Source: Pseudomonas putida (GTDB lineage: Bacteria > Pseudomonadota > Gammaproteobacteria > Pseudomonadales > Pseudomonadaceae). Taken from it: DNA of 64,000 nt. Made by a program: the position numbers and the translations under genes. Positions 6,376 through 26,714 of this stretch are shown here, one piece after another. The notes beneath the pieces were generated by a model, which was given only the letters and a program-made list of their open reading frames with translations, made no database searches and had not been told where the DNA came from. How positions within the stretch are numbered: position 1 is the first letter of the stretch; every line of letters starts with the position of its first letter. Location: positions 2,728,001-2,792,000 of the forward strand of contig NZ_CP011789.1 in assembly GCF_001636055.1 (NCBI RefSeq), read 5' to 3'.

Positions 6376-7452
6376 ATGAGCGGCCCCCAGGGACATTCGA
6401 GCCCGATCCTGACCTTCCCCCAAGGTGAAAAGGATCCCCTGTCGATTCGGGCCAAGGCCCTGGTCTTCGCCGATCCGCGTTCGCGCCAACTGCTGGAGTT
6501 TCTGCAAAGGGTCGGGCCCAGTGAAGTGCCCGTGCTGATCAACGGTGAGACCGGCACCGGCAAGGAGCTGGTCGCCCGTTACCTGCATGCGGCCAGCGGC
6601 CGTCGTGGCGCCTTCGTGGCGGTCAATTGCGGGGCGATCAGCGAAACTCTCGCCGAAAGCGAGTTCTTCGGCCATGAGGCCGGGGCCTTTTCCGGCGCAG
6701 CGGGCCGTCGTCCCGGCTGGTTCGAGGAGGCTGACGGCGGCACCTTGTTTCTCGACGAGATTGGCGATCTGCCGCTCGCGCTGCAGGTCAAGCTGTTGCG
6801 TGTGCTGCAGGAGCAGGAGGTGGTGCGGGTCGGCTCGCGCAAGCCCGTGAAGATCGACATCCGCCTGGTAACCGCCACCAACGTCGACCTGGAGCAGGCG
6901 GTGGAGGCGGGCAACTTTCGCCTGGACCTCTTCTATCGCATCAACGTCGCCCAGGTCGCCGTGTTGCCACTGCGCGAAAGGCCCCTCGACATCCTGCCGT
7001 TGGTGGAACACTTTCGGCGGATCTACAGCGCGCGCTTGAACATCAGTGAACCGATGCTCTCCGAGTCGGCGACCCAGGCACTGCTTGACTACCCCTGGCC
7101 GGGCAATATCCGTGAGCTGGAAAACGTTGTGCACCTGGCATTGCTGGTGGCCGGCGACAAGCCGATCCGCCCGGAGCACCTGAAGTTTTCCGCTGGGCTG
7201 AGTGTGGCCAGGACCAGTGCGGGCAACGTGCACACGCTGCCCCAGGAGGTGATGCGCGAACAGTTGCTGCGCTTGTTCGAGGTCCCTGGAGAGGCGTTGC
7301 TGCACGACATCGAAGACCTGATCGTGCGCGAAGCGTTTGCCTATTGCGGCTTCAACCAGCTGCGCACGGCGGCGTTGCTGGGCATCACCCGCAATGCCAT
7401 GCGCACCTTGCTGGTCAATCACGGCATGCTCAAGGGCCGCACGCCGGGCTGA
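6376..7452 (+). CDS. Sigma-54-dependent enhancer-binding protein, SfnR-like, without sensor domain
   Basis: 358-residue transcription activator made only of a central AAA+ domain and a C-terminal Fis-type helix-turn-helix. Walker A GETGTGKE (57-64), sigma-54 contact loop GAFSGA (103-108, normally GAFTGA), Walker B TLFLDEIG (123-130) and the C-terminal [18 protein letters not shown] recognition helix are visible. The lack of an N-terminal receiver or ligand domain resembles SfnR of P. putida, where activity is set by expression under sulfur limitation. Four sigma-54 promoters lie within 12 kb, so it is the likely local activator. Its end overlaps the convergent monooxygenase gene by 23 bases. 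Confidence 0.88.
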
Positions 7453-8554
7453 TCCGCCGCAACAACGGCACCAGCTCGGCCCCCAGGTGAATCGCCTCTT
7501 CCAGATGCGGGAAGCCCGACAGCACGAAACACTCCACGCCCAGTTGGCTGTAGGCTTCGATCCGGTCGGCGACCTGCTGGTAGCTGCCCACCAGCGCAGT
7601 GCCGGCGCCCCCCCGCACCAGCCCGACCCCGGCCCAGAGGTTGGGTGAAACCTCCAGCTCACGCGCCCGTCGTCCACGTCCCTTGACCAGCCCGGTCTGG
7701 CGCGACTGGCCGACCGACTCGTAGGCGGCCATCTGCAGTTGCGCCTGCTCGATGGCTTCCTTGGGGATCTCCTCCAGCAACCGCTCCACATGCGCCCAGG
7801 CTTGCTCATCGGTGGGCGCGGCGAACACGTGCAAACGCAAGCCGAAGCGCAAGGTGCGTCCGCGAGTTGCGGCCAGCTCGCGCATGCGCAGGATGCGTTC
7901 GGCGATCATCTGCGGCGGTTCGCACCACATCAGGTAGGTCTGCGCATGGGCTGCGCCCACCTGTTCGGCGGCGTTGGATGCGCCGCCGAAATAGATCGCC
8001 GGTGCTGCTGCCTGAGGTGCGATCGGGCTGCCGCCCCCGCTGCGGTAGTAGCGTCCGTGATGGGGTTGACCGTGTCCGCTCCAGACGGCCTGGAACACCT
8101 GGAGGAACTCGGCAGTGCGTGCATAGCGCTCGTCATGCTCGAGAAAATCCCCCAGCGAGCGTTGCTCGAAGCGGCTCGATCCGCTGACCACATGCAGGTC
8201 CAGGCGCCCGTTGCTGAGCAACTGCAGGGTCGCGGCGCGGTGGGCGCTGTAGGCGGGCAGTTCGAGCCCCGGACGCACCGTCAGCAGGAAGCGCAGGCGC
8301 TGTACCTCCTGGGCCAGCACGGCCGTGATCAGCCAGGGGTCTTCGAAACCGCTGGCGGTGGGCACCATGATGCCGTCGAAGTTGCCGAGCTCGGCGGCGC
8401 GTACCACCTGGCGCAAATAGTCGAGGGTCGGCGCGCGTTCACCCTGCTGGAACAGGCCGACCTTGGGCAGGCCGCTGCTGGTCAGGTGACGGCCGTCGCC
8501 ATTGGTGGGCAGGAACCAGTCGATCTCGATCGGCCTGTGCGCGGGCTTGTACAT
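7430..8554 (-). CDS. SsuD-like FMNH2-dependent alkanesulfonate monooxygenase (LLM class)
   Basis: 374-residue luciferase-like flavin monooxygenase closest in pattern to alkanesulfonate monooxygenase SsuD. Visible are the N-terminal [32 protein letters not shown] and [15 protein letters not shown] segments and the C-terminal [21 protein letters not shown]. Such enzymes use reduced FMN and oxygen to release sulfite from sulfonates. The SsuE-type reductase partner is not encoded nearby. It is the last gene of the minus-strand operon, one base after the preceding stop, and converges on the activator gene. Confidence 0.88.
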
Positions 8555-8555
8555 C

Positions 8556-9551
8556 TCAGACGCTCTCCTTGCGGGTCAGCAGGGGCAGGACTTGCTCGCC
8601 GAAGCGCAGCACCTCGCTGACCGTCGGCTGGCCCTGGATGACGATATGCTCGATCCCTACGCCGTGCAGCTCTTGCAGGCGGGTGGCGAGTTGCTGCGCG
8701 GTGCCCACCAGGTACAGCGGTTGATCGGGGGCCTGCTGCAGCAGGTTGGGGTGCACCTCGAAGCGGCGTAGCGGGTGGCCATCGCGTTGCAACCGCGTCA
8801 CGCTGTCAGCGCCGTCGGCGGGTGGTGCAGGCAGTTGGCGGGCGGCGGCTTCCCAGGCTTGCGCTTCGGTGTCGGCGAGTATCAGGCCGAGGGTGCAGGC
8901 GAACGTCGGTGCCAACGCCGGTTCGGGGCTGGCGTCGCGCTGTCGGGCAATGGCCTGGCGCAGCCAGGCGGGTGGCGCCGGGCGCAGCAGGCAGGCCTGG
9001 GCGTGGCTGGCGATCAGCGCAGGGCTTTGGCTGTCGTCGAGGACGATGGGCGGTGCGGGCAGGTCGCGCCAGGCAAAGCCTGCGTTCTCCAGCTGAAAAT
9101 AGCGACCGTTGTAGGTGAAGCCCGGGTCGCTGCCGCGCAGCAGGCGCCCGAGGATTTCCAGGTATTCGCCAATACGCTCGTTGCGCTGGTCGCGGTTGAG
9201 CCAGTCGCCGAACGCCTGGCGCAGGCTGTTCTGTTCGCTGTCTGGCAGGTGCAGGCGCACGCGGTTGGCGCTGATCGACTGCAGGCTCTGCACTGTACTG
9301 GCCAGCGCTGCTGGCAGCATCACTTGCGGCGGTATGCTGACGGTCAAGCGCACATGGCGGGTGTGTGCACACAGCGCTGCGGCTATGCCCAGGCTGTCGA
9401 GGCACTGCGCGCCACCGGGAATCCACAGGCCATCGAGCCCGGCATATTCGACCGCCTGGGCCAGTTGAATCCAGTGCCCGGGGCCTGTCACGCCGCCGGG
9501 CGCCGCAGCCGGGCCGCAGAGCGGCAGTTGCCAGCTGAATTCAAGGGCCAT
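8556..9551 (-). CDS. LLM class flavin-dependent monooxygenase
   Basis: 331-residue member of the bacterial luciferase-like fold. Supporting segments are GHWIQLAQAVEYAGLDGLWIP near the start, TRHVRLTVSIPPQVMLPA, and C-terminal VGTAQQLATRLQELHGVGIEHIVIQGQP. It is more diverged than its neighbour and its substrate cannot be inferred. The ATG at 9551 is chosen over the GTG at 9557 because a GGAG lies 7 bases upstream of the ATG. It is separated from the next gene by a single base. Confidence 0.8.
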   Translation of the reverse strand: MALEFSWQLPLCGPAAAPGGVTGPGHWIQLAQAVEYAGLDGLWIPGGAQCLDSLGIAAALCAHTRHVRLTVSIPPQVMLPAALASTVQSLQSISANRVRLHLPDSEQNSLRQAFGDWLNRDQRNERIGEYLEILGRLLRGSDPGFTYNGRYFQLENAGFAWRDLPAPPIVLDDSQSPALIASHAQACLLRPAPPAWLRQAIARQRDASPEPALAPTFACTLGLILADTEAQAWEAAARQLPAPPADGADSVTRLQRDGHPLRRFEVHPNLLQQAPDQPLYLVGTAQQLATRLQELHGVGIEHIVIQGQPTVSEVLRFGEQVLPLLTRKESV

Positions 9552-9587
9552 GACCACGCTCCGTCGGGCGGCAGAAAGAGGTCACCA

Positions 9588-10619
9588 TCATCCCACCGTC
9601 GCCTGCGGCTGAGTAGCCAGCCCGTGCTTCGCTCGCCAGCCGAGCGCGGGTGCGATGTCTTCGGCGATGATGCGCAGGCGTTCGAGCACCTGGGCCTGGG
9701 TCGAGCTTTCGGCCTGGGTGACCACGATCAGGTAGTCGACGTAGCCCAGCAGCGCCGGGTCCTGGCGCAGGCTGTGGACGATGTCGTCGGGGGCGCCGTG
9801 GTGCACGTTCATCAGGCGCAGGTGCGCGTCCAGGTCCAGCGCCTCGTCGATCAACCCTTCACGGCGCAGGCGCGGTACATGCCGTTCGATGTCGATGGCC
9901 AGTTCCGCCTGGGCACTGCCCCGGTCGTGTGCGGGAAACACTGCACGGACCACGCCGATACGTGGCGCTCGGGTTGTATCGCGCCAGGCATGCAGGTAGG
10001 CGTCGGCCAGGGGCTTCTGCACGGTCAGCGGGTCGTGGGTGGCGGTGCCGAGCAGCAGGCCGTTGCCTTGCCGGGCGGCATACGCGGCACCCGCGACACT
10101 GCCGTGGGAGTGCCAGAGGCGCTGGCGCAAGCCGCAGGCGGGCGGTTGCAGGCTTAGGTCGGCGTGCAGGGGCGCGCCTTCGAGCAGTTGCTGCAACTGC
10201 TGTTGCTGGGCTTCGAAGTGCGCCTGGCGTTGTGCTGGATCCAGCCCGAAGGCGGTGAAGTTGTCGAGGTTGGCGCCGCCGCTGCCCAGCCCCAGTTGCA
10301 CCCGCTGGCCGCTGAGGCTGTCCAGCACGCTGGCGTCTTCGGCCAGGCGGATCGGGTCTTCGAAGGGCAGCACGATGACGCCGGTGCCCAGCTCGATCTG
10401 TCGCGTGCGCTCGGCTACCGCGGCCAGCAACACCAGGGGTGAAGGCAGTTGCCCGAAGCCGCTGCTCAGGTGGTGCTGGGCGATCCAGCCGCCGTCGAAG
10501 CCCAGGGCCTCGGCCACTTCGAATTGCTCCAGCAGGTCACGATAGGCCTGCCGTGGGTCCTCGCCGAAGGCGTGGCTGAGAAAGCCCAGCTTGAAGGGTT
10601 TTTGCGGGGATAAGGTCAT
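9588..10619 (-). CDS. LLM class flavin-dependent monooxygenase
   Basis: 343-residue luciferase-like enzyme (LGFLSHAFGEDPRQAYRDLLEQFEVAEALGFDGG split over the first beta-alpha unit, then WIAQHHLSS, IELGTGVIVLPFEDPIRLAED). It closely parallels the next gene upstream in motif layout (WIAQHH, GTGVIVLP versus GTAIIVLP), so the two are probably tandem duplicates. Its ATG overlaps the preceding stop as ATGA (10616-10619), indicating coupled translation. Expected reaction: FMNH2-dependent oxygenation of a small organic sulfur or nitrogen compound. Confidence 0.83.
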   Translation of the reverse strand: MTLSPQKPFKLGFLSHAFGEDPRQAYRDLLEQFEVAEALGFDGGWIAQHHLSSGFGQLPSPLVLLAAVAERTRQIELGTGVIVLPFEDPIRLAEDASVLDSLSGQRVQLGLGSGGANLDNFTAFGLDPAQRQAHFEAQQQQLQQLLEGAPLHADLSLQPPACGLRQRLWHSHGSVAGAAYAARQGNGLLLGTATHDPLTVQKPLADAYLHAWRDTTRAPRIGVVRAVFPAHDRGSAQAELAIDIERHVPRLRREGLIDEALDLDAHLRLMNVHHGAPDDIVHSLRQDPALLGYVDYLIVVTQAESSTQAQVLERLRIIAEDIAPALGWRAKHGLATQPQATVG

Positions 10620-11629
10620 GCTTGCACGGGCTCCTCGAGAGGTCGGTTAATGGCGACGCCAGGGCGCCACCCGAGCGCCGGTGCGATGTGCTGGCGCAGG
10701 ATTTCCAGGGCCCTGATCGCTTCGCGCAGCGGTGTACTGGTGGTTTGCACCTGCACCACCAGTTGGTCGTGCACACCCAGCTGTGGGCCACGGCGCAGCC
10801 CCTCGACGATCTGCGTCGAGCTGCCATGCAGCACGCCGAGGCGTTCGAGCACTGCACCCAGATCGCCGCCCAGGGAGGCGTCGAGCACACCGATGGTTTG
10901 CTGGCGGCGCACATAGGCCTGGATGTCCTGGCGCAGCGCGGTGTCGTCGCCACCCTCGGGGAATACCGCTTGCACCCGCACCACGCGCGGGGCCGTGAGG
11001 TGATCGCTGCGCCAGCCCTGACGATAGCGCTGCACCAGTTCCACGCCGGCCTCGACCGGCAGGTGCGGGTTGGGCGCCATGATCAGGCCGTTGCCACGTG
11101 CGGCCACCTGCTCCACCCGTGAGGTGGCCTCCCACAGGCGTTGGCCAAGCCCGCGAGCCGCAGGGCGCAGTTGCAGCCCTTGGTCGTTGAGCGCGGCGTT
11201 GCCGAGGGCATCGTGCAAGCGTTGCAGGTGGTCTTCGTAGCGGCCGTGGCGCTGCTCGGGGTTCAGTTCGAAGGCGCTGAACGTGTCTGGGTCAAAGCCG
11301 GCACCCAGGCCCAATTCCACGCGCCCGTCGGCCAGCAGGTCGAGTACGGCGGCATCTTCGGCCAGGCGCAGCGGCGGCTCCTGGGGCAAGACGATGATCG
11401 CCGTGCCCAGCCGGATTCTCCGGGTGCGCTGGGCGATGGCCGACAGCAGCACCAGCGGCGAGGGCAGGCGCCCCTGTTCGCTGGCGAAATGGTGCTGGGC
11501 CACCCAGCCACTGTCGAAGCCGAGCTCCTCGGCAACGCGAAACAGCTCCAGGGTGTCGCGGTAGACCTTGGCGTCGAACCGCGGCTGGTAGACGCGGGTG
11601 AGAAAACCCAGTGAAAAACCACCGCTCAT
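10616..11629 (-). CDS. LLM class flavin-dependent monooxygenase
   Basis: 337-residue luciferase-like enzyme. GFLTRVYQPRF begins the fold, then FDSGWVAQHHFASEQGRLPSPLVLL and RIRLGTAIIVLPQEPPLRLAEDAAVLD, the flavin-binding barrel of this subgroup. The frame is open to 11749, but the ATG at 11629 is chosen because upstream residues are basic shadow sequence and the ATG overlaps the surE-like stop as ATGA (11626-11629). Forms a paralogous pair with the downstream gene. Confidence 0.83.
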   Translation of the reverse strand: MSGGFSLGFLTRVYQPRFDAKVYRDTLELFRVAEELGFDSGWVAQHHFASEQGRLPSPLVLLSAIAQRTRRIRLGTAIIVLPQEPPLRLAEDAAVLDLLADGRVELGLGAGFDPDTFSAFELNPEQRHGRYEDHLQRLHDALGNAALNDQGLQLRPAARGLGQRLWEATSRVEQVAARGNGLIMAPNPHLPVEAGVELVQRYRQGWRSDHLTAPRVVRVQAVFPEGGDDTALRQDIQAYVRRQQTIGVLDASLGGDLGAVLERLGVLHGSSTQIVEGLRRGPQLGVHDQLVVQVQTTSTPLREAIRALEILRQHIAPALGWRPGVAINRPLEEPVQA

Positions 11630-12564
11630 GGTGTCTGTCCTCGTTCGGGGGCGGGCAGGGCGCTGAGCCGTTGCAGGGCGGGTGTGGCGGCAGGTGACTG
11701 CAGCAGGCCGCTGAAGGGGCTGATGGTCAGGTAACCTTTGGCCAGCCACACGGCTTCGTCGTCCTGCTCGGTGTCGCTGGCGGGTGCACTGCTGGAAAAG
11801 CCGATGCCGGGTTTACCGGAAAGCGCTGCGCCGAAACTGCCCAGGTCGTCGGTGTATCGCGTGTCGAAACCCACGTAGCGGCCGATGCGAGTCAGGCGAA
11901 TGCCCTTGACCTCGCTGCCGGCGGGTAGATTGATGTTGAGGCCGATGCCAGCGGGCAGCAGCTTGCCGTCGGCCGGGCGCTGTTGCTCCAGCGCCTGCAC
12001 CAGGCGCAGTACGAAGCGTGCGGTGCGCTGAGGGTCGTGATCCTCGAGGTCGGTACTTACCGCCAGGGTCGGCACGCCGGTCTGCAGCGCCGCACTGGCG
12101 GCGTTGAAGGTGCCCGAGGCGAGGTTGATCGCGCCGACATTGTTGCCGGGGTTGGGGCCGACGATCACCAGGTCCGGGTCGGGCATGACCTTCTTCAGGC
12201 CCATGAGCACGGCCATCACCGGTGTTGCGCTGATCTCGATGCTGACGCTCTGGCCGGCACAGATCGGGCTGGTGCAGGGGCCTTGCTCGTGGGTGGAGAG
12301 AAAGTAGCTGTCGGGGTAGGCGGGGTCGTCGTCGCGCCCGATGCTGACTTCGCGTCCGTAGTAGAAGGCACCGCCGCGCGCACTTTGCTCGCTCTTGGGA
12401 GCGGCGATGCGCACGGTGTGTCCGGCGGCCTTGAGGGTGCTGTACAGCGCGCGGATGTTCGGATGCTGATAGCCGTCGTCGTTGCTCAGCAGGATATTCA
12501 GGGCCAGGGCAGGCGATGCACTGATCACGCCCGCCGCCAGCACCAGGCCGGCCAGGGCCTTCAT
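11626..12564 (-). CDS. SurE-like 5'/3'-nucleotidase with signal peptide
   Basis: 312-residue SurE-family phosphatase. The metal-binding start of the fold reads NILLSNDDGY (D29, D30), followed by APKSEQSARGGAF and VGPNPGNNVG. SurE proteins are normally cytoplasmic and begin with this strand; here it is preceded by a clean signal peptide (residues 1-21, ending SPALA), so the enzyme should be periplasmic. Two cysteines in QGPCTSPICAG could form a disulfide. The ATG at 12564 overlaps the upstream stop as ATGA. Likely role: dephosphorylating or otherwise trimming a substrate before import. Confidence 0.85.
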   Translation of the reverse strand: MKALAGLVLAAGVISASPALALNILLSNDDGYQHPNIRALYSTLKAAGHTVRIAAPKSEQSARGGAFYYGREVSIGRDDDPAYPDSYFLSTHEQGPCTSPICAGQSVSIEISATPVMAVLMGLKKVMPDPDLVIVGPNPGNNVGAINLASGTFNAASAALQTGVPTLAVSTDLEDHDPQRTARFVLRLVQALEQQRPADGKLLPAGIGLNINLPAGSEVKGIRLTRIGRYVGFDTRYTDDLGSFGAALSGKPGIGFSSSAPASDTEQDDEAVWLAKGYLTISPFSGLLQSPAATPALQRLSALPAPERGQTP

Positions 12565-13898
12565 GCCGGGGCCCGCGTGCTGAAGCGGTTGGCCGGGCGC
12601 GGCAGGCCCAGGTGTTCGCGCAGGGTGCTGCCGGCATAGTCGAGGCGGAACAGTCCACGTTGCTGCAGCACCGGGATCACCTGGTCGACGAAGGTGTCGA
12701 TGGCGCCGGGAAAGTAGGGGAAGAACACATTGAAACCGTCGCAGGCGCGGGCCTGGAACCACTGCTCGAAGCTGTCGGCGATATCGCTCGGCGTGCCGAT
12801 CACCGGGTTGCCACCAGCCAGGCGCAGGTACAGCTGGCGGATGCTGAGATTGTCGCGCCGGGCCAGTTGCAGCACCTGGTCTCGGCGGCTGCCGCGCTGG
12901 CCGGGCGGGGTGTCGGGCAACGGGCCGTCGAGGTCGTGGCCGGAGAGGTCGATGTCTTCACCCAGGGTGTCGGCCAGCAGGCGCAGGCCCAGCACCGGGT
13001 CGATCAGGGCCTGGAACTGTTCGAACAACTGCTGGGCCTGTTCGCGGGTATCGGCGATGAAAGGGGTGACGCCAGGCAGGATCTTGATGTGCTCGGGATC
13101 GCGGCCCAGGGCTGCAGCACGCTGCTTGATGTCCTGGTAGAAGGCCTGGGCGGCGGGCAACTCGTGGTGTGCGGCGAAGATCACTTCGGCCACCCGCGCC
13201 GCCAGGGCCTTGCCGGCTTCCGAGGCGCCGGCCTGCACCAGCACCGGGTGCCCCTGGGGTGGGCGAGCCACGTTCAGTGGGCCACGCACCGAGAAGTGTG
13301 CGCCCTTGTGGTTCAGGGTGTGCAGCTTGTCCGGGTCGAAGTAGCGGCCGCTGGCCTTGTCGCGGACGAAGGCATCGTCGTCCCAACTGTCCCACAGGCC
13401 CTTGACCACGTCATGGAACTCTTCGGCGCGCTGGTAGCGGTCAGTGTGGTCGATGTGCTGCTCGCGGCCGAAGTTCCAGGCTTCGTCGGCAACCACCGAA
13501 GTCACCAGGTTCCAGGCTGCGCGCCCCTTGGACAGGTGATCGAGGGAGGCGAACTTGCGGGCGATATGGTACGGCTCGTTGTAGCTGGTGGTGGCGGTGG
13601 CGATCAGGCCGATGCGCTCGGTGACCGCCGCCAGTGCCGACATCAACGTCAGCGGCTCGAAGTGCTCGGCGCGCGCGGTGCGGCTCAAGGCATCGAGGTG
13701 ATGGCCCCAGAGCGCCACCACATCGGCAATGAACAGTGCATCGAACTTGCCCCGTTCGGCGCTGCGGGCGATGGCCTTGAAATGTTCGAAGTCCTGGCTG
13801 GCGTCGGCCTGGGCCAGGGGGTGGCGCCAGGCGGCCACATGGTGACCGCTGTTGGCGAGAAATGCGCCCAGCTTGAGCTGGTCGGTGCGACGGGTCAT
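12561..13898 (-). CDS. NtaA/SnaA/DszA family FMNH2-dependent monooxygenase
   Basis: 445-residue monooxygenase of the nitrilotriacetate / pristinamycin synthase A / dibenzothiophene-sulfone family. Diagnostic segments are GAFLANSGHHVAAWRHP, EHFEPLTLMSALAAVTERIGL, TSYNEPYHIARKFASLDHLS, GRAAWNLVTS, HPVLVQAGASEAG and the C-terminal FNVFFPYFPGAIDTFVDQVIPVLQQRGLF. These enzymes oxidatively cleave C-N or C-S bonds with FMNH2 from a separate reductase. Second gene of the operon, 61 bases after the TonB receptor. Confidence 0.9.
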   Translation of the reverse strand: MTRRTDQLKLGAFLANSGHHVAAWRHPLAQADASQDFEHFKAIARSAERGKFDALFIADVVALWGHHLDALSRTARAEHFEPLTLMSALAAVTERIGLIATATTSYNEPYHIARKFASLDHLSKGRAAWNLVTSVVADEAWNFGREQHIDHTDRYQRAEEFHDVVKGLWDSWDDDAFVRDKASGRYFDPDKLHTLNHKGAHFSVRGPLNVARPPQGHPVLVQAGASEAGKALAARVAEVIFAAHHELPAAQAFYQDIKQRAAALGRDPEHIKILPGVTPFIADTREQAQQLFEQFQALIDPVLGLRLLADTLGEDIDLSGHDLDGPLPDTPPGQRGSRRDQVLQLARRDNLSIRQLYLRLAGGNPVIGTPSDIADSFEQWFQARACDGFNVFFPYFPGAIDTFVDQVIPVLQQRGLFRLDYAGSTLREHLGLPRPANRFSTRAPA

Positions 13899-13959
13899 GA
13901 CAGCCTCCGTGCAAGCGTTCGGCAGGGCCCTGCCGCCTGCGGGGCGACAGGGCGGTGGG

Positions 13960-16548: not shown

Positions 16549-16563
16549 GCAAGGGCTGTGCCA
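16549..16563 (-). promoter_or_regulatory. Sigma-54 promoter for the TonB receptor-monooxygenase operon
   Basis: Read on the minus strand: TGGCAC-AGCCC-TTGC, a full match to the -24/-12 consensus (GG to GC spacing correct), followed by T. Only the minus-strand receptor gene lies downstream. Confidence 0.8.
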
Positions 16564-16706
16564 GGCTGAAAAGGCCTTTCTGGACAAGGGTTTGGGATCA
16601 GGGCGAGGCGTGGACTGGTGTTTTTGTAGCAGTGTCTGGCCAAGGTGTTGGTTTTTGCGCAGTGACGTCGTCCTGGCCATGGGATGCCAGGCAGCACCGC
16701 CGGCAT

Positions 16707-16721: not shown

Positions 16722-16757
16722 TCCGGGGCACGAACCCTCTTTCAAGGAATTCATTCG

Positions 16758-17756: not shown

Positions 17757-17762
17757 AGGCAG

Positions 17763-17781
17763 ACACCGGCGTTGCCGGTGT
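17763..17781. terminator. Hairpin between convergent P1 peptidase and TPR genes
   Basis: Perfect 8-bp stem ACACCGGC / GCCGGTGT with a 3-base loop, 6 bases past the peptidase stop and 27 bases past the TPR stop on the other strand. There is no T tract, so it may act with Rho or as a 3'-end stabiliser. Confidence 0.5.
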
Positions 17782-17808
17782 TCGCGGAGCATGCTTGCCG
17801 TCGCCCGG

Positions 17809-19173: not shown

Positions 19174-19212
19174 GGGGCGAGTGTCCGTTGGATTGTCGAT
19201 CTGACAAGCAGG

Positions 19213-19227
19213 GCAAGGGCTGTGCCA
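19213..19227 (-). promoter_or_regulatory. Sigma-54 promoter for the TPR gene
   Basis: Minus strand reads TGGCAC-AGCCC-TTGC, identical over 15 bases to the TonB receptor promoter at 16549-16563. It is 40 bases upstream of the TPR ATG. Confidence 0.8.
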
Positions 19228-19403
19228 GTTGGCTTGCGCGCACATCATGCGCGGTGCGGCGCGGCTGGACGCAGCCGTGGAAAGCGATGCATCGCCGGGC
19301 ACACTGTTGCTTTTTCCACACTCACGCCGCGCGCTGTGGATTTTTCATCAGTGAAGTTGCGTCACGAGCCCCTGCGGCGCCTGTGCGCAGGCGTTGCGCG
19401 CAG

Positions 19404-19418
19404 TGGCACACCCCTTGC
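19404..19418 (+). promoter_or_regulatory. Sigma-54 promoter for the ABC transporter operon
   Basis: TGGCAC-ACCCC-TTGC followed by A, a full match to the -24/-12 consensus, differing from the P1 peptidase promoter only in the spacer. The predicted start is about 44 bases before the ATG at 19474. Confidence 0.82.
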
Positions 19419-19473
19419 AAAAATGCCTGGCAGAGGGGCCTGTGCCCCGTGCAATTATCGCCAAGGAGTCCGC

Positions 19474-21090
19474 ATGCCCCATCAAGCCCACCGCCGTTCG
19501 CCTCACCCCGGGCCGCTGCGTCTTGCCCTGAAACGCCTGGGCCTGCTGGCCGGTGCCGCGCTTCTTGCCGCCAGCGTCCATGCCGCGCCGCGCGACGGTG
19601 GCGTGCTGAACCTGATCGCCCAACCTGAGCCGCCGTCGCTGATGCACGGGGTGGTCACCCACGTTTCCACCCAGTACGTCAGCGGCAAGATCCTGCAAGG
19701 GTTGTTGACCTTCGACACCACGCTCAAGCCCCAACCGGTATTGGCGCGTAGCTGGAGCGTTACGCCGGATGGCCTGACCTACCGCTTCACGCTGCAACCC
19801 GATGTGCACTGGCATGATGGCCAACCCTTCACGGCGGCCGATGTGAAGTTCAGCTTTGGCACCTTCTACCCGGAAGTCGACAAGCGCGTCGGCAGCGTGT
19901 TCGCCGAGTACGTCGACAGCATCGACGCCAGTGATCCGCAACAGGTGGTCTTTCATCTGAAGAAGCCTTTCGCTCCGTTCCTTTCGTTGCTCGGCAGCGG
20001 CCTGCGCCCGGTGGTGCCCGAGCACCTGTATGCCGGCACCGACTTTCGCAGCAACCCTTATAACCTCAAGCCCGTGGGCACCGGGCCCTTCGTGTTCCAG
20101 GAGTGGAAGCGAGGCGCCTACATCAAGCTGGTGAAAAACCCCGACTACTGGAAAAAGGGCCTGCCGCACCTGGATGCCATCGTCTTCCACGTGATCCCCG
20201 ATGGCTCATCGCGCGCGGCCGCTTTCGAGCGCGATGACGTGCAGGTGCTGCGCAGCGGCGATGCCGACTATGCCGACCTCAAACGTCTCGCAGCGTTACC
20301 GGGGGTACACGCCTCCGAGCAGGGCTGGGAGCTGTATTCGGGCCTGGCCTTCCTGCAGTTCAACACGCGCAAAGCGCCACTGGACAACCCCAAGGTGCGC
20401 CAGGCGATCCTCTATGCCTTGAACCGCCCGTTCATCGTCGACAACATTTTCTTCGGTGCCGGCAAGGTCGCGCCGGGCGCCTTCGCTTCGAGTTCGCCTT
20501 ACCACGACCCGCAACTGCCGCAGTACGGCTACGACCTTGCCAAGGCCAAGGCGCTGATCGCCGAGTCCGGGGTGGATGTGGGCGCCGTGCGGATCCGCCT
20601 GCTCAACGGCGAGAAGGGCGGGGCCTGGGAACGGCTTGCCGAATACACCCGTCAGGCCTTGCAGCCGCTGGGCTTCAAGGTGCAAGTGGTGACCTCCGAT
20701 GCGGCCACCTGGTTCCAGCGTGTCAGCGATTGGGACTTCGACCTGACCTACAATTTCATTTTCCAGATCGGCGATCCCTATCTGGTCAATGCCTACCTGT
20801 ACCGCTCCGACTACATCGTCAAGACGTCGCCCTTCGCCAACGTCGGCGGCTACCGCAATGCCGATGCCGACCGCTTGTGGAATCAGGTCGCCGATACGCC
20901 CGAGGGCGCGGAGCGCACCCGCCTGTACAGCCAGCTCGAGCACTTGCTCAACGACGAGCTGCCGGTCGCGCCGATCTTCGAGATGCGCTACCCGACGCTG
21001 TTCCACAGCCAGGTGAAGAACCTGCTGCAGACGGCCACCAGCCTCAACGAAGACTATGAGAGCGTCTACCTGGACGCCCCGGCGCCATGA
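19474..21090 (+). CDS. ABC transporter substrate-binding protein, peptide/nickel (Opp/Dpp) type
   Basis: 538-residue periplasmic binding protein of SBP family 5. A twin-basic n-region and hydrophobic core form the signal peptide (cleavage after SVHAA, about residue 38). Family blocks include PVLARSWSVTPDGLTYRFTL, HWHDGQPFTAADVKFSF, YNLKPVGTGPFVFQEW and a C-terminal APIFEMRYPTLFH. The ATG at 19474 is preceded by AAGGAG; the frame is open to 19222, but upstream residues lack a signal peptide. Fifth-family proteins bind peptides, opines or glutathione-like molecules; the ligand here is not readable. First gene of a tightly overlapping six-gene operon. Confidence 0.9.
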   Translation: MPHQAHRRSPHPGPLRLALKRLGLLAGAALLAASVHAAPRDGGVLNLIAQPEPPSLMHGVVTHVSTQYVSGKILQGLLTFDTTLKPQPVLARSWSVTPDGLTYRFTLQPDVHWHDGQPFTAADVKFSFGTFYPEVDKRVGSVFAEYVDSIDASDPQQVVFHLKKPFAPFLSLLGSGLRPVVPEHLYAGTDFRSNPYNLKPVGTGPFVFQEWKRGAYIKLVKNPDYWKKGLPHLDAIVFHVIPDGSSRAAAFERDDVQVLRSGDADYADLKRLAALPGVHASEQGWELYSGLAFLQFNTRKAPLDNPKVRQAILYALNRPFIVDNIFFGAGKVAPGAFASSSPYHDPQLPQYGYDLAKAKALIAESGVDVGAVRIRLLNGEKGGAWERLAEYTRQALQPLGFKVQVVTSDAATWFQRVSDWDFDLTYNFIFQIGDPYLVNAYLYRSDYIVKTSPFANVGGYRNADADRLWNQVADTPEGAERTRLYSQLEHLLNDELPVAPIFEMRYPTLFHSQVKNLLQTATSLNEDYESVYLDAPAP

Positions 21091-22079
21091 GCGGGTTGAG
21101 GTCTTTCGGTGGGCGCCTGGGGCGTGCGCTGCTGATGATCCTTGGGGTGCTGGTATTGAGCTTTCTGCTGGTGCGCCTGGCGCCTGGCGACCCGGCATTG
21201 CTGATGGCCGGCGAGGCCGGGATCGACGATGTCGAGTACGTTGCCAAGCTGCGCAGCGACATGGGCCTGGACCAGCCACTGCCACAGCAGTTGTGGCGTT
21301 ACCTGGGCCAGGTGGCGCATCTGGACCTGGGTTATTCCTACCGCAACCAGGCACCGGTGTGGGACCTGCTCGCCGAGCGCCTGCCCGCCACCCTGAGCCT
21401 GATGGGCGCTGCGTTTCTCGTCTCGTCGGTGCTCGGGGTCGGCCTGGGCGCGCTGGCAGCGTTCAACCGCCAGCGCCGACCCTGGCTGGACGGGCTGATC
21501 GCCAATGGTGCGTTGCTGTTGTTCGCCACGCCGCCGTTCTGGCTGGCGATGCTGCTGATCCTGTTGTTCTCGGTCCACCTCGACTGGCTGCCGGCGTTCG
21601 GCATGCAGACCGTTGCCCGCGACCTGCACGGCGTCGCCTGGCTGGCGGACCGGCTGCGTCACCTGGTGCTGCCATGCCTGTCGCTGAGCTTTCTGTTCCT
21701 CGCCCTCTACGTGCACCTGACCCGCGCGTCCACCCTTGAAGCACTGCGCCAGGAGCATGTCTATACGGCGCGCGCCAAGGGCCTGCATCCGGCGCGCATC
21801 GTCTTCGCCCATGTGCTGCGCAACGCGCTGCTGCCGGTGGTGACCTTCGCCGGGCTGCAACTGGGGCAACTGGCAAGCGGCGCCTTGCTGATCGAGGTGG
21901 TGTATTCCTGGCCGGGCATTGGCCGCCTGATGTACGACGCCCTGTCCCAGCGCGACTATGGCGTGCTGCTGGGCGGCTTTCTGCTGATCTCGATCCTGGT
22001 GGTCGGCTTCAACCTGCTCACTGACCTGGCCTGCCGTCTGCTCGACCCGCGGATCGCAGCAGGGGGGGCAGCACGATGA
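21087..22079 (+). CDS. ABC transporter permease, Opp/Dpp B type
   Basis: 330-residue inner-membrane permease with about six transmembrane segments. The N-terminal FLLVRLAPGDPA is the DppB/OppB signature, and the EAA loop (ALRQEHVYTARAKGLHPARIVFAHVLRNALLP) contacts the ATPase. Its ATG overlaps the preceding stop as ATGA. Confidence 0.92.
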   Translation: MSGLRSFGGRLGRALLMILGVLVLSFLLVRLAPGDPALLMAGEAGIDDVEYVAKLRSDMGLDQPLPQQLWRYLGQVAHLDLGYSYRNQAPVWDLLAERLPATLSLMGAAFLVSSVLGVGLGALAAFNRQRRPWLDGLIANGALLLFATPPFWLAMLLILLFSVHLDWLPAFGMQTVARDLHGVAWLADRLRHLVLPCLSLSFLFLALYVHLTRASTLEALRQEHVYTARAKGLHPARIVFAHVLRNALLPVVTFAGLQLGQLASGALLIEVVYSWPGIGRLMYDALSQRDYGVLLGGFLLISILVVGFNLLTDLACRLLDPRIAAGGAAR

Positions 22080-22924
22080 GGGATTCAAGCGTGTGGCAAC
22101 GTTTTCTCGGGCAACCCGCGGCACTGGCTGGCGCGGTGTTCCTGCTGCTGTTGGGGCTGCTGGCCTTGGCCGCGCCCTGGATCGGCCAGGGGTCTCCCTG
22201 GGAAATGAACACCACGCCGATGCTCGCGCCCTTCACGCAAGCCCAGCACTGGTTGGGCAGCGACCTGCTGGGGCGCGACCTGGCCACGGGGCTGCTGTAT
22301 GGCGCCCGGGTGTCACTGGCGGTGGGGGCGCTGGCGAGCCTGGCCACGTTGCTTGTCGGCTTGCTGGTCGGTGCACTCGCGGGTTACTTCGGCGGTTGGC
22401 TGGATGCGCTGTTGATGCGCGTGGCCGAGTTCTTCCAGATCATTCCGCAGTTGGTGCTGGCGGTGATCCTGGTGGCGGTACTGGAGCCGTCGCTGGGCAC
22501 CATCGTGCTGGCCATCGCCCTGGTCGCCTGGCCGGGTGTGGCGCGTCTGGTGCGCAGCGAATTCCTCAGCCTGCGCCAGCGTGAGTTCGTCCAGGCTGCG
22601 CGGGTGCTGGGGCAGTCGCCGCTGGCGATCGTGTTCCGGCAGATCCTGCCCAATGCCCTGGCGCCGCTGCTGGTGACGCTCAGCTTCGTCATGGCCACGG
22701 CGATTCTCACCGAGGCGGCGTTGGCGTTTCTCGGCCTGGGCGATCCAGAGGCGATGAGCTGGGGCTACATGATCAACGCCTCGCGTGGTGTATTGCGCGA
22801 GGCCTGGTGGATGAGCCTGTTGCCGGGGCTGGCGATCCTGCTCAGCGTGCTGGCGGTCAACCGCGTCGGTGAAGGCCTGCGTATCGCATTCGAACCTGCC
22901 CGCCGAACAGGAGTGTCGTCATGA
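22076..22924 (+). CDS. ABC transporter permease, Opp/Dpp C type
   Basis: 282-residue permease, second half of the membrane channel. HWLGSDLLGRDLATGLLYGARVSL is the typical OppC/DppC block, and the EAA loop reads REFVQAARVLGQSPLAIVFRQILPNALAP. ATGA overlap with the upstream permease (22076-22079) and with the ATPase downstream (22921-22924). Confidence 0.92.
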   Translation: MRDSSVWQRFLGQPAALAGAVFLLLLGLLALAAPWIGQGSPWEMNTTPMLAPFTQAQHWLGSDLLGRDLATGLLYGARVSLAVGALASLATLLVGLLVGALAGYFGGWLDALLMRVAEFFQIIPQLVLAVILVAVLEPSLGTIVLAIALVAWPGVARLVRSEFLSLRQREFVQAARVLGQSPLAIVFRQILPNALAPLLVTLSFVMATAILTEAALAFLGLGDPEAMSWGYMINASRGVLREAWWMSLLPGLAILLSVLAVNRVGEGLRIAFEPARRTGVSS

Positions 22925-24540
22925 GCCAGCCGATCCTGCTCGATATCGAGCACCTGCGTATCGCACTGCCAGCAGGCGGCGATCGCAGCCATGCGCTTCA
23001 CGACCTGTCGTTGCAGGTGCGCGAAGGCGAGTGCCTGTGCGTGGTAGGCGAGTCCGGCTCGGGCAAGTCGATGCTGGCCAAGGCCCTGCTGCGCCTGCTG
23101 CCGACGCCTTTGCAGGTGGAGCAGGGCGCGCTGCGCTGGCGCGGTGATGACCTTGCCAAACTGGACGATGCGGCCATGCGCGCGCTGCGCGGGCGCGACA
23201 TCAGCATGGTCTTCCAGGAGCCGATGAGTGCACTCAACCCGCTGCTCGGCGTGGGCCGACAGATCGACGAGACACTCCAGGCCCACGGCATGAAGAACGC
23301 TGCCCAGCGTCGCGCGCGGGTTTTCGAGCTGCTGGGCTATGTGGGGCTGCCCGATCCCGAGCGCTTGCGTCATGCCTACCCCTTCGAGTTGTCTGGCGGG
23401 CAGCGCCAGCGAGTGGTGATTGCCATGGCCCTGGCGTTCGCGCCGAAGCTGCTGATCGCCGATGAGCCGACCTCGGCGCTGGATGTGACCACGCAACGGC
23501 AGATCCTCGACCTGCTGCGCCGCATCCAGCACGAGCACGGCATGGCCATGCTGTTCATCACCCACGACTTTGCCGTGGTCGAGGCCATCGCCGATCGCGT
23601 GCTGGTGCTGCAGCAGGGCCATGTGGTGGAACAAGGCAGCAGTACCCAGGTGCTGAGCGCGCCGCAGCAGCGTTATACCCGACAACTGATCGCTGCCGCC
23701 GGTGCCGTGCCGGCCCATCCACGGCCGCCGTTGGGGCAAGGGGCGCTGGCGTTGCAGGCACGACAACTGGAAAAACACTTCAGCCGCCGCATCGGCTGGT
23801 GGGGCCGACGCACGACCCAGGCGTTGGCGGGTGTCGACCTGCAATTGGGCGAGGGCGAAACCCTGGGGATCGTCGGCGAGTCCGGTTCGGGCAAGTCGAC
23901 CCTGGGCCGCTGCCTGGTGCGCCTGCTGCGCAGCGATGCTGGCTGCCTGCAGTGGCACGGACGTGATGTGACAGGGTTGCCCGAGGCGCAGCTACGGCCT
24001 TTGCGTGGCCAGGTGCAGATGATCTTCCAGGATCCCTTCGCCTCGCTCAATCCACGCCAGCGTATCGGCACGCAATTGATGACCGGGCCGTTGGCCCAGG
24101 GGCGCAGCCAGGCAGAGGCGGCGCAGAAGGCGCGCGAAGTGTTGGCCCTGGTCGGGCTGCCGGCCACCGCGCTGGCACGCTACCCCGATGAATTCTCCGG
24201 TGGTCAGCGCCAGCGTATCGGCATTGCCCGGGCGCTGGCGGTGGAACCAAAGGTGCTGATTGCCGATGAGTGTGTGTCGGCACTCGATGCGCTGATCCAG
24301 GTGCAGATCATCGAACTGCTCGAAGACCTGCAGCGGCGCCTGAAGCTGAGCATCGTCTTCATCACCCACGACCTGCGGGTGGCGGCGCGGCTGTGCGACC
24401 GCATCGCGGTGATGCAGGCTGGCCAGGTGGTGGAGCAGGGCGCGACCCGCAACTTGCTCGAACGGCCGGCGCATCCCTACACGCGCAGGCTGTTGCAGGA
24501 CTTCGCGGTGCAGGCGCCAGTGGCCGAGGCCACCCCATGA
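22921..24540 (+). CDS. ABC transporter ATP-binding protein, two fused nucleotide-binding domains
   Basis: 539-residue fusion of OppD- and OppF-like ATPases, as in GsiA and YejF. Domain 1 has Walker A GESGSGKS (43-50), signature [15 protein letters not shown] and Walker [13 protein letters not shown]. Domain 2 has Walker A GESGSGKS near 317, signature [15 protein letters not shown] and Walker [12 protein letters not shown], where the usual P of DEP is C. Both should hydrolyse ATP to drive import. Coupled by ATGA overlaps on both sides. Confidence 0.92.
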
Positions 24541-25760
24541 GCCGGCGGATGATGAGCCTGAACGCCTTCCTCATGGCCACCGGACACCATGTCGCGGGCT
24601 GGCGTCACCCTGATGCCCAGGCCGATGGCGGGTTGGACTTTGCCCATTACAGGCAGTTGGCACGTACCGCCGAGCGCGGCTGCTTCGATGCCCTGTTCCT
24701 CTCCGACACCCTGGCCATGCTGCCCGGCGATCGCGAGGCGTTGAGCCGCATGGCACGCACCGAGCATTTCGAGCCGCTGACCCTGCTGGCAGCGCTGGCA
24801 GCAGTCACCGAGCGCATCGGCCTGGTAGCGACGGTGACCACCTCCTACAACCAGGTCGAGACCCTGGCGCAGGCCTTCACTTCGCTCGAGGCCTTGAGTG
24901 GACAGCGCAGCGGCTGGAACCTGGTGACTTCGAGCAATGCCCAGGAAGCGTTCAACTTCGGGCGTGACGGGCACTTCGAACACGCCCGGCGCTATGAGCT
25001 GGCCCGGCGTTTTCTCGAACAGTTGCAGCGTCATTGGGCGAGCGCTGGGGTGACGCCCGTGCAAGTACTGGCCGGTGCTTCACGGGCGGGGTGCGAGCTG
25101 GCGGCAGCCCATGCCGAGGTGGTGTTCACCGCACAGCCGGAACTGGCAGGTGCCCAGCGTTTCTATCGCGAACTCAAGGCGCTGCTACCGCGCTTCGGGC
25201 GAAGTGCCGAGCAGATGAAAATCATGCCGGGGGTGCTGCCGATCGTGGCCGACTCGCGCGCCGAAGCCCAGGCGTTGTTCGAGCAGTTGCAGGCACTGGT
25301 GCAGCCTGAAGTCGGCTTGTCGTTGCTGGCCGATATTGCCGGGGGTGTCGATCTTTCGGCGTATCCTCTCGACGGGCCGTTGCCGGATCTGCCGGGCACC
25401 GAGTCCGGCGTCAGCCGCCGTGAGCTGTTGATCCGCGTGGCCCGTGAGGAGCGGCTAAGCATCCGTCAACTGTACTTGCGCATGGCCGCAGCACGTGGCC
25501 ATCTGGTGCTGGTGGGTGACGCCCGGCAGATTGCCGACCAGATGGAGCAATGGTTTACCGAGGGCGCCGCAGATGGTTTCAATGTGATGCCGGCGTATCT
25601 GCCCGATGCCCTGGGGGCCTTCGTCGACAAGGTGGTACCTGAGCTGCAGCGCCGAGGGCTGTTCCGGCGTGCCTATCAGGGGAGCACCTTGCGCGACCAC
25701 CTGGGCTTGGCCCGTCCCGATTCATTTGCCTGTAAGGAGGCCCTAGGTGCCCATGGCTGA
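24537..25760 (+). CDS. NtaA/SnaA-like FMNH2-dependent monooxygenase, short form
   Basis: 407-residue paralogue of the monooxygenase at 12561. Shared blocks are ATGHHVAGWRHPDAQ, EHFEPLTLLAALAAVTERIGL, SGQRSGWNLVTS, VLAGASRAG and FNVMPAYLPDALGAFVDKVVPELQRRGLF. About 40 residues are missing between the RFLEQLQRHW helix and VQVLAGAS, the stretch that in the longer paralogue carries DPDKLHTLNHKGAHFSVRGP. That loop lies near the active site in this family, so its substrate may differ. ATG overlaps the ATPase stop (ATGA). Confidence 0.85.
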   Translation: MSRRMMSLNAFLMATGHHVAGWRHPDAQADGGLDFAHYRQLARTAERGCFDALFLSDTLAMLPGDREALSRMARTEHFEPLTLLAALAAVTERIGLVATVTTSYNQVETLAQAFTSLEALSGQRSGWNLVTSSNAQEAFNFGRDGHFEHARRYELARRFLEQLQRHWASAGVTPVQVLAGASRAGCELAAAHAEVVFTAQPELAGAQRFYRELKALLPRFGRSAEQMKIMPGVLPIVADSRAEAQALFEQLQALVQPEVGLSLLADIAGGVDLSAYPLDGPLPDLPGTESGVSRRELLIRVAREERLSIRQLYLRMAAARGHLVLVGDARQIADQMEQWFTEGAADGFNVMPAYLPDALGAFVDKVVPELQRRGLFRRAYQGSTLRDHLGLARPDSFACKEALGAHG

Positions 25761-26631
25761 CCCGAACCGATTCGCCGACTTGCCGCGGGTGCGCGGCCAA
25801 CTCATCGAAGTGCGCCCCGGGCGACGGCTGAGTGTGGCTGTGCAGCCCGGCAGTCATGAGCCCGACACCGTGGTGTTTCTCGGGCATGGCAGTGGTGGCA
25901 ACAAGGATCAGTGGCGCGAGCTGTGGCCAAGCCTGCGCGAGCAGGGTTACACCCTGGTGGCCTGGGACCTGCTCGGCCACGGCGACAGCGACAAGCCGCA
26001 TGACACCAGCGCCTATGCCTGGGAGGCGCTGGTGGCCGACCAGGTGGCATTGCTGCAGCGCCATGCCGGGCGGCGCAACCTGTTGGTGGGGCACTCCTAT
26101 GGCAGCGGCCTGGCCATGAGCACGTTGCTCGAGCTGCCGCGTCAGATGCCGCACGTGCGTATCGACGGCGCGTTGTTGCTGGGCAGCCTGTTGCAACGGC
26201 CTGCGGGGCGCGGTGGCTTGCTGGGCCTGCCGACCTGGTTGTTGAAGCTGTTGCGGCCGATCCTGGCCAAGGACTTTCGTGCGCGGGCCTGGCATCCGCT
26301 GGCCGACCCGGCGCTGATCGAGTACGAGGAGGGCCTGGCCCAGCGCAACCGCCTGGATGTGTTCAAGGCGCTGATGAACAGCGCGAGCTGGCCTGAGCCC
26401 GAGGCGCTTGCCGGGCTCGACCTGCCGGTACAGGTGGTGTCTGGCGACAGTGATGGGCTGACGCCCGCCAGTGGCGGAGAAGCCCTGGCGCGACAGTTGC
26501 CGCGCGCACAGTTCCAGGTGCTGGCCCAGTGCGGCCATCAGTTGATGCTTGAGCGTCCGGCACAGGTGCTGGAGGCGTTTGAGCGTCTGTTGAGGGAGGT
26601 GAAGCGTGACAACAAGCTGGTTATTTCATAA
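25747..26631 (+). CDS. Alpha/beta hydrolase
   Basis: 294-residue alpha/beta-fold hydrolase. Oxyanion-hole segment FLGHGSGGNKDQW (about 45), nucleophile elbow GHSYGSG (S117), and a late CGHQLMLERP that supplies the catalytic histidine. No signal peptide. A GTG at 25747 has AGGAGG six bases upstream; an ATG at 25753 is the alternative. It overlaps the end of the monooxygenase gene by 14 bases and is the last gene of the operon. Probably hydrolyses an ester, amide or thioester made or imported by the pathway. Confidence 0.85.
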   Translation: MPMADPNRFADLPRVRGQLIEVRPGRRLSVAVQPGSHEPDTVVFLGHGSGGNKDQWRELWPSLREQGYTLVAWDLLGHGDSDKPHDTSAYAWEALVADQVALLQRHAGRRNLLVGHSYGSGLAMSTLLELPRQMPHVRIDGALLLGSLLQRPAGRGGLLGLPTWLLKLLRPILAKDFRARAWHPLADPALIEYEEGLAQRNRLDVFKALMNSASWPEPEALAGLDLPVQVVSGDSDGLTPASGGEALARQLPRAQFQVLAQCGHQLMLERPAQVLEAFERLLREVKRDNKLVIS

Positions 26632-26714
26632 AAGAATATTTATCTAATTTTATATTCCTTTTTCGGATTTCCACTTTGAGGCACAGTGCCAGCCTTTAGC
26701 TTGGCAGGTTGGAT

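Follow-up and report, generated by a model that had tools for sequence, protein, structure and literature searches.

Sulfur in soil is mostly organic, and little is known about how cells reach its larger, linked forms. In Pseudomonas putida, SfnR is reportedly regulated by CysB, going by the title of Endoh 2003. In P. donghuensis, sfnR is reported to fall together with the ssu and tau genes under root exudates. MsuE supplies reduced flavin mononucleotide (FMNH2) to SfnG, MsuC and MsuD (PMC8234197), and one flavin reductase of Acinetobacter serves several monooxygenases of this kind (PMC13352529). In Bacillus, CmoO and CmoJ dealkylate N-acetylated S-alkylcysteines via sulfoxidation and C-S cleavage (PMC10863075), and related clusters work through acetylation, breakdown and deacetylation (PMC12757645). 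Here we describe a block of 16 genes, including its own activator gene act, in a stretch of 64,000 nucleotides of P. putida (GCF_001636055.1, contig NZ_CP011789.1), which we call the window. The window covers positions 2,728,001-2,792,000 of a single-contig genome of 5.81 Mb.

The evidence supports the view that the block is a conserved, dedicated sigma-54 regulon, and we consider it quite probable that it is a local, self-contained regulon for organosulfur scavenging. Both ideas had been raised by a first inspection of the DNA letters (the sequence-only reading). The regulon was borne out in three ways: the promoters are conserved, so is a tandem enhancer private to the cluster, and act strictly co-occurs with the cluster. 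The guess of sulfur scavenging gained support from the loci of act paralogues, from a relative of the receptor at another locus of the genome (L090) and from the Cys/Met-poor receptor and binding protein. The paired enhancer, the co-occurrence of act and cluster, the core/accessory split and the Cys/Met signature are new here. Among the records listed by searches of the open-licence PMC library, none described the cluster.

Promoters, paired enhancer and activator

The block opens with act on the plus strand. A minus-strand operon follows, encoding a TonB-dependent receptor, M5, SurE, M4, M3, M2 and M1, where M1 to M6 are luciferase-like monooxygenases. Then come the P1 peptidase gene (plus), a TPR-repeat gene (minus) and a plus-strand operon for a solute-binding protein (SBP), two permeases of the ATP-binding cassette (ABC) type (perm1 and perm2), an ABC ATPase (ATP), M6 and an alpha/beta hydrolase (ABH). 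The extent of the operons, seven and six genes as in the sequence-only reading, was judged from gene overlaps and strand. For comparison, fetched DNA loci were numbered L001-L098 and Pseudomonas genomes were given G numbers, G000 being the genome of the window. The cluster loci are L001-L032 and L074 (n=33), and the 28 of them longer than 20 kb form the full-length set.

The four perfect TGGCAC-N5-TTGC promoters proposed for the block are all present, at the positions and on the strands given for them. They lie in two intergenic regions, one outward-pointing pair in each. They face the seven-gene operon, P1, the TPR gene and the six-gene operon; the wider claim that every unit is so faced fails at act, which has no perfect site of its own. 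The distance from site to start codon is 36 bases for P1, 39 for the TPR gene, 55 for SBP and 153 for the receptor. None of 100 dinucleotide shuffles of the window reached four perfect sites (shuffle mean 0.41). The genome holds 31 perfect sites versus 8 for the reversed pattern, and at that rate the Poisson probability of four within 2.9 kb is about 2e-9, for a stretch picked after being seen. With one mismatch allowed, the window showed no excess (8 found versus 9.58 expected), and therefore the case rests on the perfect matches and on conservation. Conserved sites across loci are more telling than the shuffle test. Gene order, too, is conserved across Pseudomonas loci. With a slightly relaxed pattern, 31 receptor/P1 regions and 30 TPR/SBP regions of L001-L032, the window included, have both sites; the remaining regions end at contig ends or, in L022, are interrupted by extra DNA.

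Counting short word pairs common to both regions across loci yielded a palindrome, CTG-N4-TTTT-N4-CAG. In the window, each intergenic region carries two copies 30 bp apart between the divergent promoters, and one copy per region has a mismatch. The spacing in other loci is 30 or 31 bp, about three helical turns. In a weight-matrix scan, every one of the 33 cluster loci had one pair or more, and the 29 loci having both regions had at least two each, the weakest being in L014-L016. The other 47 loci of L001-L080 gave one pair, a weak one in L038, and shuffled L001-L032 gave none; 67 of the 72 pairs in L001-L080 were spaced 30 or 31 bp. Across our own genome (5.8 Mb), the double element at 30-bp spacing with up to three mismatches had 47 matches (reversed control, 23). 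Zero or one mismatch occurred only in the two pairs of the block, two others had two, and at 31-bp spacing none had fewer than three. Among 149 Pseudomonas genomes, the strict double pattern without mismatch was present in 9 of 12 that bear P1 and in 1 of 137 that do not, and one mismatch added four further P1-less genomes. These results support the view that the element pair is an enhancer private to this cluster. The idea of an enhancer common to other SfnR-like loci was set aside, none being found in ten stretches of the same genome with sulfur-type or sigma-54 loci (L089-L098).

The act product, predicted to be a sensor-less activator, has 358 residues with AAA+ from residue 31, so it lacks a sensor domain. 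Pfam Sigma54_activat matches residues 31-194, and HTH_8 matches below cut-off. The same genome encodes three sensor-less paralogues, which are 53-55% identical to the act product and score 376, 347 and 309 bits, versus at most 243 for the other 17 matches. By bit score, with these paralogues as reference, act can be placed with the SfnR-like proteins rather than with other sigma-54 activators. One paralogue (53% identical) ends a run of FMN reductase, acyl-CoA dehydrogenase and activator at L091, a run like sfnECR. Another sits between a metH-like gene and SsuD-like genes at L089, and the third is near a sulfate-transporter-like run at L092. The names metH, sfnECR and sulfate transporter are putative labels of our own.

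The occurrence of act followed that of P1. Full-length act (84-88% identical, own genome aside) was found in 11 of the 12 P1-bearing genomes among the 149 and in none of the other 137. The twelfth (G048) has an 86%-identical fragment covering residues 168-355, and in five P1-less genomes scored in full the best match reached 57%. The association has p of about 1e-15, a value uncorrected for shared ancestry. In G059, 70 kb separate act from P1, while a strict element pair lies 2.2 kb from P1. Because act is distant there and the strict pair yet stays beside the cluster, the link between act and cluster looks functional rather than one of mere adjacency.

Gene products and their sulfur amino acids

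The gene content was as the sequence-only reading had it, with six Bac_luciferase proteins, SurE, a TonB receptor, an S58 peptidase and a TPR protein, and an importer and hydrolase made up of a family-5 binding protein, two permeases, a double ATPase and an alpha/beta hydrolase (Table 1). M1 aligned with SsuD structures over nearly its whole length (E 1e-88 to 1e-94), and scored 374 bits with TIGR03565, below the SsuD family cut-off of 518. It keeps R-x-H, GLVRGG and SG[FY]PH in 32 of 32 orthologous loci, and the R-x-H, Arg and His match the SsuD residues holding the sulfonate. At the SsuD Cys, M1 has Phe, and Phe also stands at the Tyr position in 28 of 31 loci. M2 reached 117 of the 518 bits and keeps GLVRGG or SG[FY]PH in none of 32 loci and RLHV in one; it is probably a non-catalytic partner of M1. 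M3 (246 bits) and M4 (220 bits) fell below the TIGR04027 cut-off of 413 for LLM_KPN_01858. M5 (588) and M6 (424) exceeded the TIGR03860 cut-off of 280 and thus belong to the NtaA/DmoA family. The best PDB match of M5 was 7e36_B (427 bits), labelled only as an oxidoreductase of the nitrilotriacetate (NTA) monooxygenase family, followed by YtnJ (386), which we take to be CmoJ, and DszA (343). EDTA monooxygenase and RutA were among the weaker matches of M5 and M6. SurE scored 133 bits with PF01975 (cut-off 22) and 109 of 135 with TIGR00087, and its N-terminus is signal-peptide-like by eye, in keeping with the exported phosphatase first proposed.

P1 has both the PF03576 match and the Thr/Ser nucleophile of the S58/P1 family. 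T243 is invariant in 17 of 17 sequences and aligns to the NTT nucleophile stretch of ThnT, an enzyme that cuts a pantetheine amide. ThnT was also the nearest among PDB entries (159 bits), ahead of a polyamide hydrolase (114), an aminopeptidase/esterase (102) and NylC (70). Pseudomonas entomophila WZ006 has a P1 with 90% identity to the one in the window. SBP reached 96 bits with TIGR04028, whose cut-off is 469. The TPR protein is 49-85% identical to 21 aligned relatives, with invariant stretches THxWWH, GGSHAQRDLF and EPWAxHALAH, and had no match in PDB sequences. Its predicted structure is all-helical, with 24 helices and a mean predicted local distance difference test (pLDDT) score of 96.3, and on these features an enzyme or a metal site seems likelier than a scaffold. 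We presume a likeness to TTC38, for which a human metabolite locus gave no usable function.

Proteins made under sulfur starvation are known to spare sulfur amino acids. Cys and Met were compared on Pfam-matched stretches (for the luciferase-like set, 20 of 22 rows, two partial matches of one gene at 3517126-3517959 being excluded). The cluster receptor has one Cys and one Met in 810 residues and neither in its 441-residue barrel match. It is one of six such zero barrels among the 34 PF00593 receptors of the genome, a 35th match below cut-off being excluded. SBP has two Met in 537 residues and neither residue in its 342-residue domain, which ranks it lowest among the genome's 14 proteins of this kind. 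M4, M5 and M3 rank 5 to 7 of the 20 luciferase-like proteins for low Cys+Met. A luciferase-like gene lies within 7 kb of 5 of the 6 zero receptors versus none of the 28 others (p=2e-5), the zero class having been defined after the table was seen. Without the two receptors of the window, the counts are 3 of 4 versus 0 of 28 (p=8e-4). The depletion falls on promoter-proximal, presumably abundant products. The Cys/Met-free receptor barrel and SBP domain would point independently to proteins that serve under sulfur starvation.

Two further zero-barrel receptors differ in setting. The one at G000:C1:3694883-3696217 has no luciferase-like gene within 33 kb, and the one at 3143300-3144469 is 224 bases from such a gene. 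After the block, at 26709-30933 of the window, are genes for a FecI-type sigma factor, a FecR-like protein and a second TonB receptor. The barrel of this receptor likewise contains neither Cys nor Met, and its identity to the cluster receptor is 38-39%. Instead of taking up iron, it may serve in sulfur starvation under the control of a FecIR-type switch.

The cluster receptor is 39% identical to a receptor at L090. There, a perfect sigma-54 site precedes an SsuD-type gene (39% identical to M1), after which come an NMT1-type protein and a protein similar to it without a Pfam match. L090 is thus another locus of the organosulfur type, and it lacks the private enhancer. This stretch (G000:C1:3779001-3799000) also contains two receptors, ABC permeases and two perfect sigma-54 sites, and its SsuD-type product has no Cys and only the start Met.

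As to origin, a plasmid source was put aside, since P1 had no match among 72,556 plasmid records at E 1e-60. The window has a tRNA block at 4961-5284. A tRNA-linked island as a general rule was also put aside, with 12 of 13 other loci scanned free of tRNA; in the thirteenth, L032, the sole tRNA call falls inside the perm1 stretch.

Table 1. Features of the block, with positions in the window
Feature	Position	Strand	Basis
act, sensor-less sigma-54 activator (AAA+ / Fis-type HTH), SfnR-like	6376..7452	+	Pfam Sigma54_activat; HTH_8 below cut-off
M1, SsuD-like FMNH2-dependent monooxygenase, core	7430..8554	-	TIGR03565 374 bits, SsuD structures
M2, degenerate SsuD-like partner without SsuD residues, core	8556..9551	-	SsuD match 97 bits
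M3, luciferase-like monooxygenase, KPN_01858-like, accessory	9588..10619	-	TIGR04027 246 bits
M4, luciferase-like monooxygenase, M3 paralogue (46%), accessory	10616..11629	-	family match, identity to M3
SurE-type phosphatase/nucleotidase, signal-peptide-like N-terminus, accessory	11626..12564	-	PF01975; TIGR00087 109 bits
M5, NtaA/DmoA-family monooxygenase near YtnJ/CmoJ and DszA	12561..13898	-	TIGR03860 588 bits
TonB-dependent receptor, first gene of minus operon	13960..16395	-	PF00593 and PF07715
Sigma-54 promoter, receptor operon	16549..16563	-	perfect TGGCAC-N5-TTGC, conserved
Putative enhancer element A1	16613..16634		palindrome
Putative enhancer element A2, 30 bp from A1	16643..16664		palindrome
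Sigma-54 promoter, P1	16707..16721	+	perfect TGGCAC-N5-TTGC, conserved
P1 (S58) N-terminal-nucleophile amidase/peptidase, ThnT-like	16758..17756	+	PF03576, ThnT 159 bits
TPR-repeat protein, many invariant His	17809..19173	-	weak TPR matches below cut-off; alignment of 22
Sigma-54 promoter, TPR gene	19213..19227	-	perfect TGGCAC-N5-TTGC, conserved
Putative enhancer element B1	19302..19323		palindrome
Putative enhancer element B2, 30 bp from B1	19332..19353		palindrome
Sigma-54 promoter, ABC/M6/hydrolase operon	19404..19418	+	perfect TGGCAC-N5-TTGC, conserved
SBP, family-5 solute-binding protein	19474..21090	+	PF00496
perm1, ABC permease 1 (Opp/Dpp type)	21087..22079	+	profile match
perm2, ABC permease 2 (OppC type)	22076..22924	+	profile match
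ATP, double ABC ATPase	22921..24540	+	profile match
M6, NtaA/DmoA-family monooxygenase, 50% identical to M5, accessory	24537..25760	+	TIGR03860 424 bits
ABH, alpha/beta hydrolase, core	25753..26631	+	profile match; 28/28 full loci

Core genes, proposed route and other explanations

The expectation that the neighbours would be conserved together held for ten genes, which were present in all 28 full-length loci: M1, M2, the receptor, P1, TPR, SBP, both permeases, the ATPase and the hydrolase. It did not hold for the other five, which are lost or broken in some loci. M5 was found in 25 of the 28 (plus 3 partial), M3 and M4 in 20 each, SurE in 19 (plus 1 partial) and M6 in 13. As for act, it was whole in 10, present in part in 7 and not seen within the flank covered in 11. 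L074 retains only 39% of SurE and has neither M3 nor M4, which on sequence is the pattern of a deletion.

Beyond the cluster loci, 45 further loci were considered (L033-L080 minus L036, L038 and L074). P1 stands with ABC genes in 22 of them, 18 of which also have TPR. In all 48 loci of L033-L080, these three included, the receptor family occurs in 16 loci, the alpha/beta-hydrolase family in 16 and an M20 hydrolase in 7; the families were counted as BLAST-linked open reading frames, which include some antisense artefacts. With L074 set aside, the other 47 loci have five perfect sigma-54 sites in all, and none of the cluster's monooxygenases was seen in them except in L036 and L038. In these two, M4, SurE, M5, receptor genes and a PhoD phosphatase lie near P1. 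The P1-ABC module, mostly with TPR, occurs in Roseateles, Nitrospirillum and others with no cluster monooxygenases and nearly no sigma-54 sites. Because it occurs alone elsewhere, where the monooxygenases are absent save in L036 and L038, it seems that Pseudomonas has combined an older import-and-amidase module with a receptor/monooxygenase operon and that a single switch now serves both.

Two details of these loci are worth recording. The PhoD-like phosphatase (L036:5700-7277, Stutzerimonas kirkiae; L038:5749-7326, Pseudomonas flavescens) lies beside SurE, M5 and P1. In Pelomonas (L033:8653-9969), a class-III aminotransferase gene, by eye of the beta-alanine transaminase type, is directly upstream of P1.

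We favour organosulfur scavenging because of the loci of the act paralogues, the receptor relative at L090, the residues of M1, the nearness of M5 to CmoJ and DszA, and the Cys/Met-free domains. Several observations weigh against it. M1, M2, SurE, P1, the permeases, the ATPase and M6 are not Cys/Met-poor, and P1, the permeases and the ATPase are even richer in Cys+Met than their relatives outside the cluster, a comparison that leaves out M6 because its matches included cross-hits to M5. Taken as a set, the 15 genes were only marginally below 126 other proteins (p=0.04). The L089 receptor, beside luciferase-like genes and outside the receptor test for want of a PF00593 match, has four Met in 850 residues, which is low and not zero. 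The P1-ABC half would not be sulfur-specific by origin, and enzymes of the M5/M6 type also act on C-N compounds such as NTA and EDTA. The enhancer motif was derived from the loci in which it was counted, so that only the whole-genome searches are independent, and the act survey scored only the 13 best candidates per genome. Finally, the block has no flavin reductase, although this is no objection, because MsuE and the Acinetobacter reductase each serve several monooxygenases.

In the proposed scheme, act would be made under sulfate starvation, bind the paired palindrome in each divergent region and drive the two flanking sigma-54 promoters. The receptor would admit to the periplasm a compound that exceeds what porins let through, and there SurE (in some strains) or PhoD (in a relative) would remove phosphate, and the Opp-type importer would carry the compound into the cell. 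There, the ThnT-like P1 and the alpha/beta hydrolase would cut an amide or ester bond, and the monooxygenases, with FMNH2 from a reductase encoded elsewhere, would release the sulfur. Enzymes of the M5/M6/M3/M4 type might cut thioether or sulfone C-S bonds, while M1, probably with M2 as its non-catalytic partner, would cut a sulfonate to give sulfite. We infer the order of the enzymes and the class of substrate from the protein families. An amide-linked thioether or sulfonate, bearing phosphate in some strains, is a tentative candidate, possible rather than probable; it is favoured because it would use every gene with an assigned family. A narrower version, which we think unlikely, has the regulon salvaging sulfur from thioethers that are derived from coenzyme A, pantetheine-like or bound to peptides. 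The exported SurE, or PhoD in the relative, would strip periplasmic phosphate, and the importer would bring in the pantetheine-like core. P1 would then free an S-substituted cysteamine or cysteine, and the monooxygenases would act on the thioether before ending with a taurine-like sulfonate. The Bacillus CmoO/CmoJ route has to begin by attaching an N-acetyl group; here, the amide would itself stand in for that group.

The block could instead be a carbon-catabolic cluster for peptides or amides under a sigma-54 catabolic activator, with the monooxygenases serving a side chain and sulfur incidental. The ABC-P1(-TPR) modules of Roseateles, Nitrospirillum and others, which lack these monooxygenases and in places have an M20 hydrolase, agree with this. 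However, M1 and M2 are never lost in Pseudomonas (28 of 28), act lacks the ligand-sensing domain that a substrate-induced catabolic operon would usually need, and the Cys/Met depletion would be left unexplained, so we hold this distinctly unlikely. Nitrogen scavenging, by an NtrC-like sigma-54 circuit with C-N cleavage of the NTA, EDTA or pyrimidine kind and with P1 and the ABC genes taking peptides for nitrogen, would fit the wide use of sigma-54 for nitrogen genes. It would also fit the NtaA family of M5 and M6, with EDTA monooxygenase and RutA among their weaker matches. We rate it as highly unlikely. The nearest paralogues of act are at sulfur-type loci, the core monooxygenase is SsuD-like with sulfonate residues, and the main domains of the receptor and SBP have no Cys or Met. 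NtrC control was put aside because CTG-N4-TTTT-N4-CAG differs from GCAC-N7-GTGC, the NtrC consensus.

A last alternative takes the sites as real and the two halves, the receptor/monooxygenase operon and the P1/ABC module, as unrelated neighbours that share a regulator by proximity. That the P1-ABC-TPR module stands alone elsewhere and that M3-M6 and SurE come and go would be expected of such neighbours. Both halves nonetheless carry the same enhancer pair and are together in 28 of 28 full loci, and the strict pair remains by the cluster where act has moved away, which makes this most improbable.

If organosulfur scavenging is the correct reading, the block would offer a ready test system, in which a single activator and a defined enhancer govern a complete candidate route that starts at an outer-membrane receptor and ends in C-S cleavage. 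The private element pair could serve as a sequence tag for the regulon. Receptors and binding proteins that serve under sulfur starvation might be easy to recognise by their lack of Cys and Met, and some now filed as iron receptors could be among them.

Comparison with known systems

The described systems each resemble a part of the block. Loci of the KPN_01854-KPN_01858 type pair a TIGR04028 binding protein with a TIGR04027 monooxygenase; the block likewise has a binding protein of family 5 and a luciferase-like enzyme of related type, but the matches of M3, M4 and SBP are all well below cut-off. ThnT of thienamycin biosynthesis aligned with P1, the NTT nucleophile stretch included, whereas the neighbours of P1 are an importer and monooxygenases, not antibiotic biosynthesis genes.

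The S-alkylcysteine salvage of Bacillus subtilis (PMC10863075) uses two flavoenzymes, CmoO and CmoJ, for C-S cleavage of N-acylated cysteine thioethers. The closest named structure to M5, behind 7e36_B, is YtnJ; the comparison with this pathway covers M5 and CmoJ. In contrast to that pathway, the genes of the block include no N-acetyltransferase, and an S58 amidase stands in place of the deacetylase.

SsuD and MsuD are matched by M1 over nearly the full length, with the R-x-H, R and H residues kept, but M1 is below the family cut-off, has the Phe substitutions and has the degenerate M2 beside it. The SfnR regulon of P. putida DS1 (sfnECR and sfnFG; dimethyl sulfone) shares with the block a sensor-less sigma-54 activator of the same subfamily, luciferase-like FMNH2-dependent monooxygenases and sigma-54 promoters at the target units. 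Unlike the block, the sfn and msu loci to our knowledge have no import and hydrolysis genes. In addition, act appears to form its own clade, with 84-88% identity among orthologues versus 52-58% for the other matches listed, the G048 fragment aside, and the block has a tandem enhancer of its own.

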